From the NCBI GenBank assembly GCA_902801465.1, contig CADCIH010000010.1, positions 1-64,000 of the forward strand: 64,000 nucleotides of DNA. Direction: 5' to 3'. The number at the start of each line of letters is the position of its first letter. Position 1 is the stretch's first letter. This stretch comes from an uncultured Bacteroidia bacterium. Lineage in GTDB: Bacteria; Bacteroidota; Bacteroidia; Bacteroidales; F082. The translations under genes and the position numbers were made by a program. Shown here in pieces: positions 3,226 through 11,549 of this stretch. The notes below the pieces were generated by a model. The model saw only the letters and a program-made list of their open reading frames with translations, did no database searches and had not been told where the DNA came from.

Positions 3226-4302
3226 ATGATCAAGCAAAAAAGCAAACCTGAATTTCTTTCCTTGAAGAGCATATTGTTGCTCTCCTTGGGCATCAGCGTG
3301 GGCTTTCACGTGATCTTTACCATCTCTGCCTTCTTCGGCAACACGCTTTTCTTCCCCGAAATCAAACAAGACCCCCAACGGCACTTCCCTCTATGGAGGA
3401 TCCTCCTTTTTACCGCCTACAACTTCGTGCTGGTCTTCCTGCTGTTTCTCTATAACCGCAAGATGTACAACATCGAATTCAAGAAAAAAGGGGGGCGGGC
3501 CTTCTTCCTGATTTTCGGCTCCATGCTCATCACTACGGCGTTAAGCCTCACGTTCAACCTGGTGCCGGAACTCGTACAGCCCGTTGAGCATCGCCCTGGC
3601 TTCATGGCCCGCGCCATTCGCGACGGACTGATGCGCGACTTTTCATTCATGGTGGTGGTGATGCTGGTGACCAAGCTGCTTCACACCATGTTCGAACGCA
3701 ACAACATCCGGGTGGAAAACGAAGCGCTTCGGGCAGAGAACATCACGACGCACTACGAAGCCTTGAAAAGCCAGATGGATCCACATTTCATGTTCAACTC
3801 GCTGAACACACTTCAGTCACTCATCGGCACCGACTCGGTCCAAGCCCAGGCATACGTTCAGGAACTTTCCCAAGTGCTGCGATCCACCCTCCAAAACAAA
3901 GAGGTGGTCACGCTCGAACAAGAGCTTCAAGGGGTCCGCGCCTATTGCAACCTGATGCAGATACGCTATGGCGACAACCTGAAGTTTGATTTCCAAGTGA
4001 GTCCAGAGTTGCTGTCCTATCTGGTACTGCCACTCTCGGTGCAGGGACTGGTGGAGAACGCCATCAAACACAACGTCATCAGCAGTAAACAGCCCCTTCG
4101 GGTGAGTATTGCGACAACCGAGGAGGCGCTGCTGGAAGTTTCAAACCCCATCCAACCAAAGATCATGGAAGAGTCGGTCAACGGCATCGGACTGGCCAAC
4201 CTGCTGGAACGTTATCGCCTGAAATGGAATGTGGATGTGGGTATCATGGACGACGGAAAGGTTTTTGAAGTGACTTTGCCTCTGATTGACCCCAAACAAT
4301 AA
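3226..4302 (+). CDS. LytS/YehU-type sensor histidine kinase
   Basis: A 358-residue membrane kinase. Four hydrophobic segments occupy about residues 14-140. They are followed by a short coiled linker and the His_kinase core with phospho-acceptor motif PHFMFNSLNTLQ (His187). The C-terminal ATPase domain has an N-box (VENAIKHN) and a G-box (GIGLANLLERY). No periplasmic or PAS sensor domain is seen, so the membrane region is the likely sensor. It starts one base after tyrS and is followed six bases later by its LytTR partner. The signal sensed is unknown. Confidence 0.9.
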   Translation: MIKQKSKPEFLSLKSILLLSLGISVGFHVIFTISAFFGNTLFFPEIKQDPQRHFPLWRILLFTAYNFVLVFLLFLYNRKMYNIEFKKKGGRAFFLIFGSMLITTALSLTFNLVPELVQPVEHRPGFMARAIRDGLMRDFSFMVVVMLVTKLLHTMFERNNIRVENEALRAENITTHYEALKSQMDPHFMFNSLNTLQSLIGTDSVQAQAYVQELSQVLRSTLQNKEVVTLEQELQGVRAYCNLMQIRYGDNLKFDFQVSPELLSYLVLPLSVQGLVENAIKHNVISSKQPLRVSIATTEEALLEVSNPIQPKIMEESVNGIGLANLLERYRLKWNVDVGIMDDGKVFEVTLPLIDPKQ

Positions 4303-4308
4303 ACAGCC

Positions 4309-5064
4309 ATGAAAGCGCTTATCATCGAAGACGAAAGCATTGCGGCACAGGCACTTGAGTTGCTGATTAAGGAAACGAGTCCCGAAGTGGACGTCCTTGC
4401 CGTGCTCCAAACCATCGAGGAAACGGTGGAATGGTTTGATGAAAACCCGATGCCCGACTTGGTGTTTATGGACATCCACTTGGCCGACGGTTCCTCGTTC
4501 GCCATCTTCGACAAGGTGGATATTACATGCCCGGTCATCTTCACTACGGCCTACGACGAATACGCCCTGAAAGCCTTCGAAGTGAATAGCATCGATTATT
4601 TGTTAAAACCTATTAACAAATCGGATTTGGAACGGGCGATGAACAAATACAAGTCGCTGATTGCTTCGCACCAAAGGCCTTCGTTGGATGGGCTGTTGGA
4701 ACAGATGGGTGGGGTGAGAAAAAAGTATAAATCATGCTTCTTAATCCCCGAGCGTGATAAGCTCATTCCGTTGGCTACCAGTAATATAGCATACATTTTT
4801 ATCGATACCAAGACGGTGAAGGCCATCGCCATGGACGGGCATACCTATTACCTCAACCAAACCTTGGACGAGATTATGGCCCAACTCGATCCTGAACAGT
4901 TTTTCCGCGCCAACCGACAGTTTATCATCTCACGTTGGTCGGTTAAGGACATGACCGTGTGGTTTGGAAACAAGTTGGCGGTCAACCTCATTGTCCCTAC
5001 TCCTGAAAAAATCATTGTCAGCAAAGCCCGTGTGGGCGAATTCAAAACTTGGTTTGCACTATGA
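4309..5064 (+). CDS. LytTR-family response regulator
   Basis: A 251-residue DNA-binding response regulator. The N-terminal receiver domain has acidic residues IIEDE near the start, phospho-acceptor Asp55 (LVFMDIHLADG) and the switch Lys in YLLKPI. The C-terminal LytTR domain (about 150-251) includes FFRANRQFIIS and ends KTWF. It pairs with the adjacent LytS-type kinase. The stop codon overlaps the ATG of the dehydrogenase gene (ATGA at 5061), suggesting translational coupling. The target genes cannot be read from the window. Confidence 0.93.
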   Translation: MKALIIEDESIAAQALELLIKETSPEVDVLAVLQTIEETVEWFDENPMPDLVFMDIHLADGSSFAIFDKVDITCPVIFTTAYDEYALKAFEVNSIDYLLKPINKSDLERAMNKYKSLIASHQRPSLDGLLEQMGGVRKKYKSCFLIPERDKLIPLATSNIAYIFIDTKTVKAIAMDGHTYYLNQTLDEIMAQLDPEQFFRANRQFIISRWSVKDMTVWFGNKLAVNLIVPTPEKIIVSKARVGEFKTWFAL

Positions 5065-5978: not shown

Positions 5979-6037
5979 AGGGAGACCGTCTATCTCTAAA
6001 TTCTTAATTCCTAATTCTTATTTCTTAATTCTTAATT
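5952..6037. repeat. AT-rich heptamer array, inverted pair between convergent genes
   Basis: Degenerate 7-base units of the TTAGAAT/TAATTCT type run inward from both sides around a GC-richer centre (about 5978-5994). The arms carry AATTTAGAG and CTCTAAATT. The array encodes the end and stop codon of the dehydrogenase (plus strand), and the last Asn codon and stop of the vWA lipoprotein (minus strand). The hairpin could act as a bidirectional terminator. Confidence 0.8.
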
Positions 6038-7123
6038 CCCCTGGTGTGTATTCCCGTTCAGGGTCTCGATGAACTGGCAGGCGGCGCTCTTCACGCTCTG
6101 GAAGTCGCTGCCCAGTGAGCTGGAGCAGTCGAGAACCAGCATGATCATGGCGCTCTTGAACTCTTCTTCGGTCACCACATTGCCCGAAGGAGTGAACTCG
6201 GTGTTCTGCACCCATTGCTGGGCGTTGTCGTCGCGGTTCCACTGCTTGGTGTTGGAGGTGTAAACCTGTTCGCCGTCGGTGGTGAAGAGGTTGCTGAAGG
6301 TGAAGAACACGAAGATGCCTTCGGTGGTGGGGTAGATGACGCTACCGCAGTCTTGGAGCCCGACATAAGTGACGCTGTTGAAGATACAGGTTCCGTTCTG
6401 GTTGAGGAACGTGCCTTCGATGTACCGTTGGGAGTCATCCGCGTTATTGACGTTGTCGAAAGTGAAGCGGATGCGGGTGTGGTGCTCCGGGGCTGGGGTC
6501 TTCAGGGTGACATCCCATGAGGAACTCTGGCTGTAAAGGTTCTGGGCGATGTTACTGAAGGTCTGTGCCACCTGGTTCATGTTGTCCACAAGAAACACGT
6601 TCTGGTGAGGGTTGCTTGACAGTTTCTCCAGGCTTTGACGGAAGTTGGTTTCGTTGACACCTTCGCCCACGACGCCAATCGAATAGGCTGAAACAGGCAC
6701 CATGTTGTCGCCGACTTGGGTGTGGCGGATACGGTTGCTGACGGCGTTCAGATAGGCGTCACCGGTGTTGTAGTTGTCGTTGAGCATGTAGGAGCCCTGG
6801 TCAAGGCCGTCGGTGAAGGTGATGATGGACACATTGATCAGGTCGGAGGGCGGGGTGACGGTCTCGATCTTGTCGAGTGCGGTGTTCACGGCGTGGTACA
6901 GGATGGTGCCATCGTCCATGCCGAGGCCGTTGATGAAGCTCTCCAGGTGGTCCTTGCTCGATGAGTTGAGCAGGGTGAGCTTGTTGTCGGTGATTTCGCT
7001 GTTGAATCCGATGATGCCAACATACAAGCCAGGCTGGGTGGTGTCGGGCTTGTCTTTACCGCAGCTGGTAAACAGCGTGGTAGTCAGCAGCAAAGCGGCC
7101 ATCAGAAAGAGGTGTTTTTTCAT
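6032..7123 (-). CDS. lipoprotein with circularly permuted von Willebrand A domain
   Basis: A 363-residue lipoprotein (lipobox FTSC, Cys at about 21). After the signal it opens with the second strand of a vWA fold (YVGIIGFNSEI). It continues through the MIDAS Thr region (DGTILYHAVNTAL), the MIDAS Asp strand (VSIITFTDGLDQGS) and the last helices (to about 210). A beta-rich insert of about 110 residues follows (IRFTFDNV, YIEGTF). The first strand with its DxSxS motif comes last (MIMLVLDCSSSLGSDF, about 325-340). All three MIDAS loops are present, but in rotated order. It lies downstream of the nifJ terminator with its own promoter. Ligand and role are unknown. Confidence 0.82.
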   Translation of the reverse strand: MKKHLFLMAALLLTTTLFTSCGKDKPDTTQPGLYVGIIGFNSEITDNKLTLLNSSSKDHLESFINGLGMDDGTILYHAVNTALDKIETVTPPSDLINVSIITFTDGLDQGSYMLNDNYNTGDAYLNAVSNRIRHTQVGDNMVPVSAYSIGVVGEGVNETNFRQSLEKLSSNPHQNVFLVDNMNQVAQTFSNIAQNLYSQSSSWDVTLKTPAPEHHTRIRFTFDNVNNADDSQRYIEGTFLNQNGTCIFNSVTYVGLQDCGSVIYPTTEGIFVFFTFSNLFTTDGEQVYTSNTKQWNRDDNAQQWVQNTEFTPSGNVVTEEEFKSAMIMLVLDCSSSLGSDFQSVKSAACQFIETLNGNTHQGN

Positions 7124-7217: not shown

Positions 7218-7250
7218 AAAAGGAAACGGCGCATCCTAAGACGCGCCGTT
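7218..7250 (-). terminator. intrinsic terminator of nifJ
   Basis: An 8-base stem, AACGGCGC/GCGCCGTT, with a 10-base loop (7225-7250). On the minus strand it is followed by a T-rich tract. It separates nifJ from the vWA lipoprotein gene. Confidence 0.75.
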
Positions 7251-7270
7251 TTCTGTTGTCCGAAAGGAAA

Positions 7271-11006: not shown

Positions 11007-11549
11007 ATGAAAAAGTTATTCTTAATGATGGGTCTTGCTTGCCTTTTCATGGTGGCTTGCAACAACACTCCTAAACAGCAGGAGCAACCCAATGAACCTG
11101 AACAAGAAGTGGTGGCCGTTGAAGAACATCACTGCCCCTTCTGCCCCCTGAAGGCTGAATATGCCAACTGGGACAACATGGACGAAACCGCCAAGGCCGA
11201 ACTGAACAAGAAAGCTTTCGAACTCTTCGCTGAAATGGACGCCAAGAAAGCCGAGTGCGAAGCCAAGTGCGAAGGTGAAGAGCACAAATGCCAACACGAA
11301 ATGGCCGAAATGACCGATGAACAGAAGGCTGAATGCGAAGCCAAATGCGCTGAGATGAAAGCTCAATGTGAACAAATGATGGCCGCTTGGGCTAACTTCG
11401 AAAACCTCACCGTCGATGAGCAGAAGGACCTCGTCCTGGCTCGTATCGCCGCCATGGGCATGGGTGGTGAAAAATGCAACCACGAAGGCGAAGAGCACCA
11501 GTGCCAACACGAAGGCGAAGAAGGCCATCAGTGCCAACACGCTGAATAA
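11007..11549 (+). CDS. Cys/His/Glu-rich lipoprotein, probable metal binder
   Basis: A 180-residue protein with a lipoprotein signal (lipobox MVAC, Cys at about 18). The mature part is highly charged, with many Cys and His residues. It has an N-terminal HHCPFCPLK motif, an internal duplication of ECEAKC (about residues 90-94 and 111-115), and a C-terminal tandem of CNHEGEEH, CQHEGEEGH and CQHAE. The spacing suggests metal coordination, but no family is recognised. It has its own promoter and strong terminator, divergent from nifJ. A role in metal buffering or envelope stress is inference only. Confidence 0.75.
   Translation: MKKLFLMMGLACLFMVACNNTPKQQEQPNEPEQEVVAVEEHHCPFCPLKAEYANWDNMDETAKAELNKKAFELFAEMDAKKAECEAKCEGEEHKCQHEMAEMTDEQKAECEAKCAEMKAQCEQMMAAWANFENLTVDEQKDLVLARIAAMGMGGEKCNHEGEEHQCQHEGEEGHQCQHAE

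Follow-up and report, generated by a model that had tools for sequence, protein, structure and literature searches.

The von Willebrand A (vWA) domain is among the commonest metal-dependent binding folds, and its strand 1 forms the central strand of the sheet. To our knowledge, the canonical order of elements, with strand 1 first, is the rule for vWA domains. In the integrin beta chain, a vWA-type domain is inserted in a beta-sandwich which is built from both its flanks. ITGB3 has been compared in this respect with the inter-alpha-inhibitor chain HC1, whose vWFA domain is described as having a functional metal site and as sitting in a loop of a hybrid domain like that of integrins (PMC7170535). 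A natural circular permutant is known from a different fold, the cpRAS GTPase, in which the motifs of an alpha/beta domain occur in rotated order in one protein group; the accessible part of that text is silent on the order inside the accompanying vWA domain (PMC2430557). A literature search on permuted vWA domains and on Bacteroidota vWA lipoproteins, which covered subscription journals thinly, found no permuted vWA. The fold and circular permutation are already known, and what we rate as new is their combination, together with an unusually complete evolutionary record.

The protein described here (363 amino acids) is encoded in a stretch of 64,000 nucleotides from an uncultured Bacteroidia bacterium, referred to as the window, and its features are collected in Table 1. 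Read along the chain, the lipobox FTSC (Cys21) is followed after a short linker by YVGIIGFNSE (strand 2, residues 34-43), Thr73, FTDG with Asp105, a beta-rich stretch of about 120 residues (201-322), MIMLVLDCSSS (strand 1) and helix 1, which runs to residue 357. The preliminary description of the window had read this rotated order from the sequence, with strand 2 first, the Thr and Asp loops and a beta stretch in the middle and the DCSSS strand and helix 1 at the end, and had noted that all the metal-site loops were present; the order is confirmed, and the site residues are invariant in the aligned permuted members as given below. At 5991-6039 of the window, three AT-rich repeats of 21 nucleotides, in direct orientation and spaced 14, overlap the 3' end of the gene and run past it. 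The hairpin upstream of the gene is a weak candidate, as three terminator-like sites were found against 2.0 expected. Elsewhere in the window, an ORF on the forward strand at 11007-11549 encodes a lipoprotein-like product of 180 amino acids, very rich in Cys, His and Glu with HQCQH and EAKC repeats, which looks metal-binding, and two adjoining forward-strand ORFs at 3226-5064 resemble a sensor kinase paired with a response regulator of the LytTR type.

Table 1. Features of the permuted vWA gene and its upstream region (nucleotide positions in the window; residue numbers in brackets).
Feature	Position	Strand	Basis
Complete gene for the permuted vWA lipoprotein (363 aa)	6032..7123	-	Intact ORF
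Signal peptide ending in the lipobox FTSC (Cys21); mature protein begins CGKDKPD, Lys at +3	7061..7123	-	Sequence
vWA strand 2 to helix 7 (31-200)	6524..7033	-	Pfam VWA and AlphaFold2 elements
Metal-site loop 2, DGTILY, Thr73	6896..6913	-	Thr73 invariant, 66/66
Metal-site loop 3, TDG, Asp105	6806..6814	-	Asp105 invariant, 66/66; motif in 100/100 ORFs
Two beta strands (201-223), canonical C-terminal vWA flank	6455..6523	-	Inside hhalign block to template 161-360
Linker fusing the two ancestral termini (224-231, NVNNADDS)	6431..6454	-	Boundary of blocks 34-224 and 228-362
Beta domain (232-322), canonical N-terminal vWA flank	6158..6430	-	Inside hhalign block to template 22-162
vWA strand 1 with DCSSS (324-336): Asp332, Ser334, Ser336	6116..6154	-	Pfam VWA profile 2-34 and conservation
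vWA helix 1 (337-357), C terminus	6053..6115	-	AlphaFold2 helix 335-357
Terminator-like hairpin, 12-pair stem, between upstream oxidoreductase gene and vWA gene	7224..7251	-	Weak

In the whole protein, Pfam VWA (PF00092) was reported at 45.6 bits against a gathering cut-off of 23.8, with residues 31-189 on profile positions 36-172; the protein thus passes the score of the family and carries the DxSxS/Thr/Asp site, in a chain which does not begin with strand 1. A copy rotated in silico scored 55.7 bits over profile positions 2-172 of 174. Residues 32-201 given alone were not reported by Pfam as VWA, although the domain is reported within the whole protein; this result runs counter to a simple reading and is probably an effect of the HMMER filters. 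No Pfam match was obtained for residues 199-323 (the beta domain) alone and no NCBIfam match for the 363-residue protein. With an HMM of canonical-order relatives, the native protein was matched in two blocks, profile 142-339 at residues 34-224 (95.8 bits) and profile 2-139 at residues 228-362 (57.9 bits), and the rotated protein in a single block over profile 2-339 of 344 (164.0 bits). When the alignment of 66 permuted proteins was compared by hhalign with that of 11 canonical-order proteins, permuted columns 3-193 matched canonical columns 161-360 (E 5e-30) and columns 196-334 matched 22-162 (E 8e-24) in the unrotated form; after rotation, one colinear alignment of 1-325 to 23-360 was obtained with a score of 380.8 (E 5e-54). 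In both comparisons, then, rotation yields the single colinear alignment to a homologue by which a circular permutant is recognized. Because the swapped blocks merge on rotation, the breakpoints can be placed between helix 1 and strand 2, in the loop that now carries the new termini, and at about residues 224-231, where the old termini have been joined. The permutation of this protein is shown by these results.

A truncated or decayed vWA domain that later gained an unrelated C-terminal segment resembling DxSxS would give a similar appearance, and it could draw on the low score of the strand 1/helix 1 piece, since the C-terminal 50 residues alone match Pfam VWA profile 2-34 at 18.8 bits (E 0.002), under the cut-off of 23.8. 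The C-terminal 138 residues, which include the beta domain, are nevertheless homologous to the N-terminal half of the canonical proteins, with 61.9 bits against 9.4 for the best shuffle and an hhalign E-value of 1.9e-26, and none of the four invariant metal-site residues varies in 66/66 aligned members; together these leave such an origin with a probability close to nil. In this control, the C-terminal part and the strand 1/helix 1 piece were each shuffled 2000 times; any score was reported for 1742 and 1291 shuffles respectively, and the best for the shorter piece was 6.8 bits. The preliminary description had foreseen as a counter-case an upstream DxSxS strand kept by homologues and lost here, and the result was the opposite, as the strand 1 segment sits C-terminally in this protein together with the beta domain. 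Homologues also keep the rotated order: the fetched loci include 100 distinct permuted ORFs, which rules out an assembly artefact.

The canonical relatives explain the beta-rich stretch. They hold about 100 residues of beta structure before strand 1 and two strands after helix 7, with the motif W..L.CYVP....GKVRW in these two strands in several of them, so that their order is N-terminal part of the beta domain, strand 1, helix 1, strands 2-6 and C-terminal part of the beta domain. In the window protein, the pieces corresponding to the canonical C- and N-terminal flanks (201-223 and 232-322) adjoin. The stretch had been described as an insert of about 110 residues, and this has to be given up, as hhalign shows it to be an ancestral domain homologous to both flanks of the canonical vWA. 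Since both canonical flanks adjoin here, it is the whole two-domain unit which has been rotated and not the vWA domain alone. The integrin-beta-like arrangement, in which the vWA interrupts a beta domain formed by its two flanks, is seen in the sequence order of the canonical relatives; the window protein has these flanks fused.

Seventeen canonical ORFs from Bacteroidales (L027, L028, L121-L125, L134 and L200-L208) have the beta domain and the vWA in common with the window protein, with 26% identity over 318 columns of the rotated profile alignment. They differ from it in having 142-240 residues past the last matched block, which look like an outer-membrane barrel by eye; a Pfam barrel match was absent from this C-terminal region in the six ORFs scanned (L121, L123, L134, L201, L203 and L028). 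Four of the 21 canonical ORFs (L126-L128 and L147) look by eye like N-terminal lipoproteins instead of having the barrel-like tail. In two further loci, L135 (G193 C120) and L026 (G051 C135), canonical-order relatives are split over two ORFs and are apparently broken or frame-shifted.

Searches found matches in 28 of 60 related genomes and in 21 of 392 genomes of the order, in both cases including proteins with the opposite order of the pieces. Among 392 genomes of the phylum, 6 matched the permuted profile, at full length only in the window's own genome. Across 84,980 species genomes, 303 of 377 pattern-matching stretches were confirmed as relatives, and the best 80 of the 303 carry the labels Bacteroidales or Bacteroidia, Prevotellaceae, Tannerella, Muribaculaceae, Paludibacteraceae, Rikenellaceae, Barnesiella, Bacteroidaceae and Salinivirgaceae. 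Within the genus of the window, a match is present in 49 of 81 genomes that are at least 80% complete. A full-length permuted copy is found in 39 of these 49 and a copy cut by the contig end in one (G014); four (G005, G011, G015 and G861) have a copy lacking the beta domain and no full-length one, in G005 and G011 beside a canonical copy, and five (G017, G025, G822, G830 and G855) have a canonical copy only. Full-length permuted and canonical copies occur together in G834, G844, G853 and G856 of the genus, in G002 and, outside the genus, in G332. A search of the window's own genome with the canonical profile found no canonical copy. Among the fetched loci, 155 ORFs match the permuted profile, of which 100 are permuted, 21 are canonical in two blocks and 34 have one block or too little to assign; by this block classification, none of the 155 holds both arrangements.

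The 64 permuted rows of a 92-row tree are separated from all the others by a branch with support 99/98. In a tree of 99 rows which includes five degenerate rows lacking the beta domain, these and the permuted rows (69 together) form one side with support 90/85. The permuted and canonical arrangements are sister groups in the trees, and because the permuted proteins form one side of a supported branch, a single origin in Bacteroidales is probable for the rotated form, which is widespread in related bacteria. Both trees were midpoint-rooted for drawing only, and with two sister groups the rotated order might be taken as ancestral, the canonical relatives having been rotated back. As an outgroup, 12/12 rows from elsewhere in Bacteroidota show the canonical order (with domain E-values up to 7 for the weaker piece), which agrees with the general rule for vWA domains and makes an ancestral rotated order highly improbable.

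Three other accounts of the locus were considered and rejected. A mobile origin was dismissed as no match was found in phages, plasmids or viral contigs. An operon partner was also dismissed: the neighbours of 62 permuted loci cluster by local synteny only, the most frequent neighbour recurs at 16/62, and no function among these neighbours explains the vWA protein. For a diversity-generating retroelement, the C-terminal 400 nucleotides of 40 loci with long extensions gave 145 repeat windows, which came from only 7 of these loci, and in this coarse test at most 65% of the mismatches were at adenine; the proposal was rejected for lack of a clear adenine-specific signature in the 40 loci.

Five relatives (L023, L024, L025, L133 and L209) have a permuted vWA without the beta domain and with a C-terminal extension. 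These rows, though on long branches, group together (100/97) within a larger permuted branch (100/97), and the subgroup is a derived one. They keep strands 2-6 and then strand 1, with about 7 residues from helix 7 to strand 1 (by eye), and the Asp of TDG is missing in 4/5. Their alignment to the permuted profile extends over strands 2-6 only; strand 1 is weak by HMM (domain E-values of at least 1), is absent from the profile comparison and was read by eye.

An extension of at least 40 residues past the domain is present in 38/100 permuted ORFs. Nine more distant members, eight of them permuted with extensions and one lacking the beta domain, were scanned with Pfam; FGE-sulfatase was matched in 3/9, DUF5689 in two, leucine-rich repeats in one and fn3 in two (one under the cut-off), and one member had no match at E 0.01. 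VWA was listed in one and reached its cut-off in none of the nine. A protein of 1575 amino acids (L104:5710-10434) contains the permuted vWA twice, along with two FGE-sulfatase stretches and a match to dockerin type I, and resembles a duplicated vWA-FGE unit.

Structural models of single chains were obtained with AlphaFold2 for the window protein from 66 sequences (mean pLDDT 86.4, pTM 0.68) and for a second member, L096, from 45 sequences (mean pLDDT 85.9, pTM 0.73). The two members are 42% identical and their models share the expected order of elements, namely strand 2, strand 3, helices, strand 4, helix, strand 5, helix, helix 7, beta domain, strand 1 and helix 1; strand 6 is listed in the window model and not in that of L096. 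The window model has E33-40, E44-51, H54-65, H75-88, E95-104, H121-134, E142-151, H158-167, E176-179 and H182-200. The C-terminal strand 1 spans 9 residues in both (324-332 in the window protein, 359-367 in L096) and is followed by a helix, and the ten-residue blocks containing strand 1 and helix 1 have mean pLDDT values of 87, 93, 94 and 74 in the window model and 88, 96, 95 and 96 in that of L096. Parallel pairing of strands 1 and 4 did not stand out in mean-field coupling analysis, with z 2.9, ninth of the listed windows with eight higher (102 sequences, effective number 57).

In Foldseek, the integrin beta3 headpiece (betaI and hybrid domain, for example 6bxf) was the top match of the window model and HC1 that of the L096 model. 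Superposition over the whole length is poor in these comparisons (query TM about 0.3, rmsd about 17-18), so that the likeness of the beta domain to a hybrid domain is suggestive only. Neither of the known proteins is permuted; sequence kinship of the integrin with the window protein is not shown, and HC1 is a human protein with an extra large beta-sandwich domain. Among the 50 matches listed for the window model, integrin I domains align over 156-174 columns with target TM 0.48-0.58, and among the 50 listed for L096 there is one named single I domain, 3bn3_A, with target TM 0.47. A search of solved structures gave no match for the 363-residue protein and, with the profile, seven weak matches (E 0.23-0.86) including strand 1 of von Willebrand factor; a viral fold library gave two matches with E < 0.001, one of them named VWFA-domain protein.

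The C-terminal position of strand 1 after the beta domain would in principle allow strand 1 and helix 1 to complete the vWA of a neighbouring molecule, giving dimers or polymers by strand exchange, and models of single chains represent one molecule. Exchange of the central strand of a sheet should nevertheless be costly, the short distance from helix 7 to strand 1 in the relatives lacking the beta domain favours local closure, and both models show strand 1 as a strand at good confidence. Domain swapping is accordingly rated as improbable, and the chain most likely closes intramolecularly, the C-terminal strand 1 filling the centre of the sheet and completing a putative divalent-metal site.

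This site would comprise DxSxS, Thr73 and Asp105. T73, D105, D332 and S336 are invariant in 66/66 aligned permuted members and S334 is present in at least 90% of them; the metal-site motifs are likewise invariant in all 11 aligned canonical rows, which are 8 of the 17 Bacteroidales relatives and L126-L128. A scripted count of the Thr motif (98/100) includes false N-terminal matches, and the invariance in the 66-row alignment was used instead. As in other vWA domains with the site, the protein may bind an extracellular or periplasmic ligand in a metal-site-dependent manner. An extracellular binding role is suggested because FGE-sulfatase-like, leucine-rich repeat, fn3 and dockerin regions accompany the domain in relatives.

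An N-terminal lipid anchor had also been described. It holds for the window protein, which has a lipobox, and is not universal in the group, as a lipobox-like motif is found in 76/100 permuted ORFs. Lys occupies position +3 after the Cys in 69/73 permuted ORFs having both a lipobox-like motif and a recognisable start of strand 2. The export signal of Capnocytophaga canimorsus lipoproteins is described as C-X-K-(D/E)2-X, and the CGKDKPD of the window protein matches C-X-K-(D/E) and not the second acidic position (PMC5080379). Surface exposure of the lipoprotein is a plausible prediction from this signal. In the canonical relatives the anchor would be on the beta domain, by a C-terminal barrel-like region in 17/21 and by an N-terminal lipobox in 4/21 (by eye). 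Because these four look like N-terminal lipoproteins, the change of anchor was not simply from barrel to lipid. The lipid was previously placed beside the middle of the fold; we take the new N terminus of the permuted vWA to lie on the face opposite the metal site, and the earlier placement is not retained.

Taken as a whole, the protein is very probably a circular permutant of a vWA and beta unit which closes on itself and is anchored at the base of the vWA. The ancestral unit would have been a vWA set into a beta domain made of both its flanks. A break in the loop that links helix 1 to strand 2 would have created the new termini, while the old ones became connected within the beta domain. 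The simplest route may be tandem duplication of the two-domain unit followed by trimming at both ends; no such tandem intermediate was seen among the relatives. With the lipid on the new N terminus, the membrane would attach at the vWA base, near the junction with the beta domain, and the metal face should still point away from the membrane, judging from the general topology of the fold. The product would be a metal-dependent binding module that folds as a single chain and is anchored through a tether at the vWA base.

A further reading, which we put forward tentatively and consider rather doubtful, is that of a permuted integrin-beta-like vWA/hybrid head whose tether has moved from the hybrid-like domain to the vWA base, with a mechanical consequence. 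If this is true, the hybrid-like domain would swing freely, and the metal-dependent switch would be uncoupled from the membrane or coupled to it in a new way. Because Pfam sees only part of the domain (its match starts at profile position 36, and the nine distant members miss the cut-off), other permuted vWA domains may have been overlooked. A permutant that is present across a whole group, has canonical paralogues within its genus and includes a sub-branch lacking the beta domain offers a natural experiment on the chain connections needed by the vWA fold and by its metal-driven switch.
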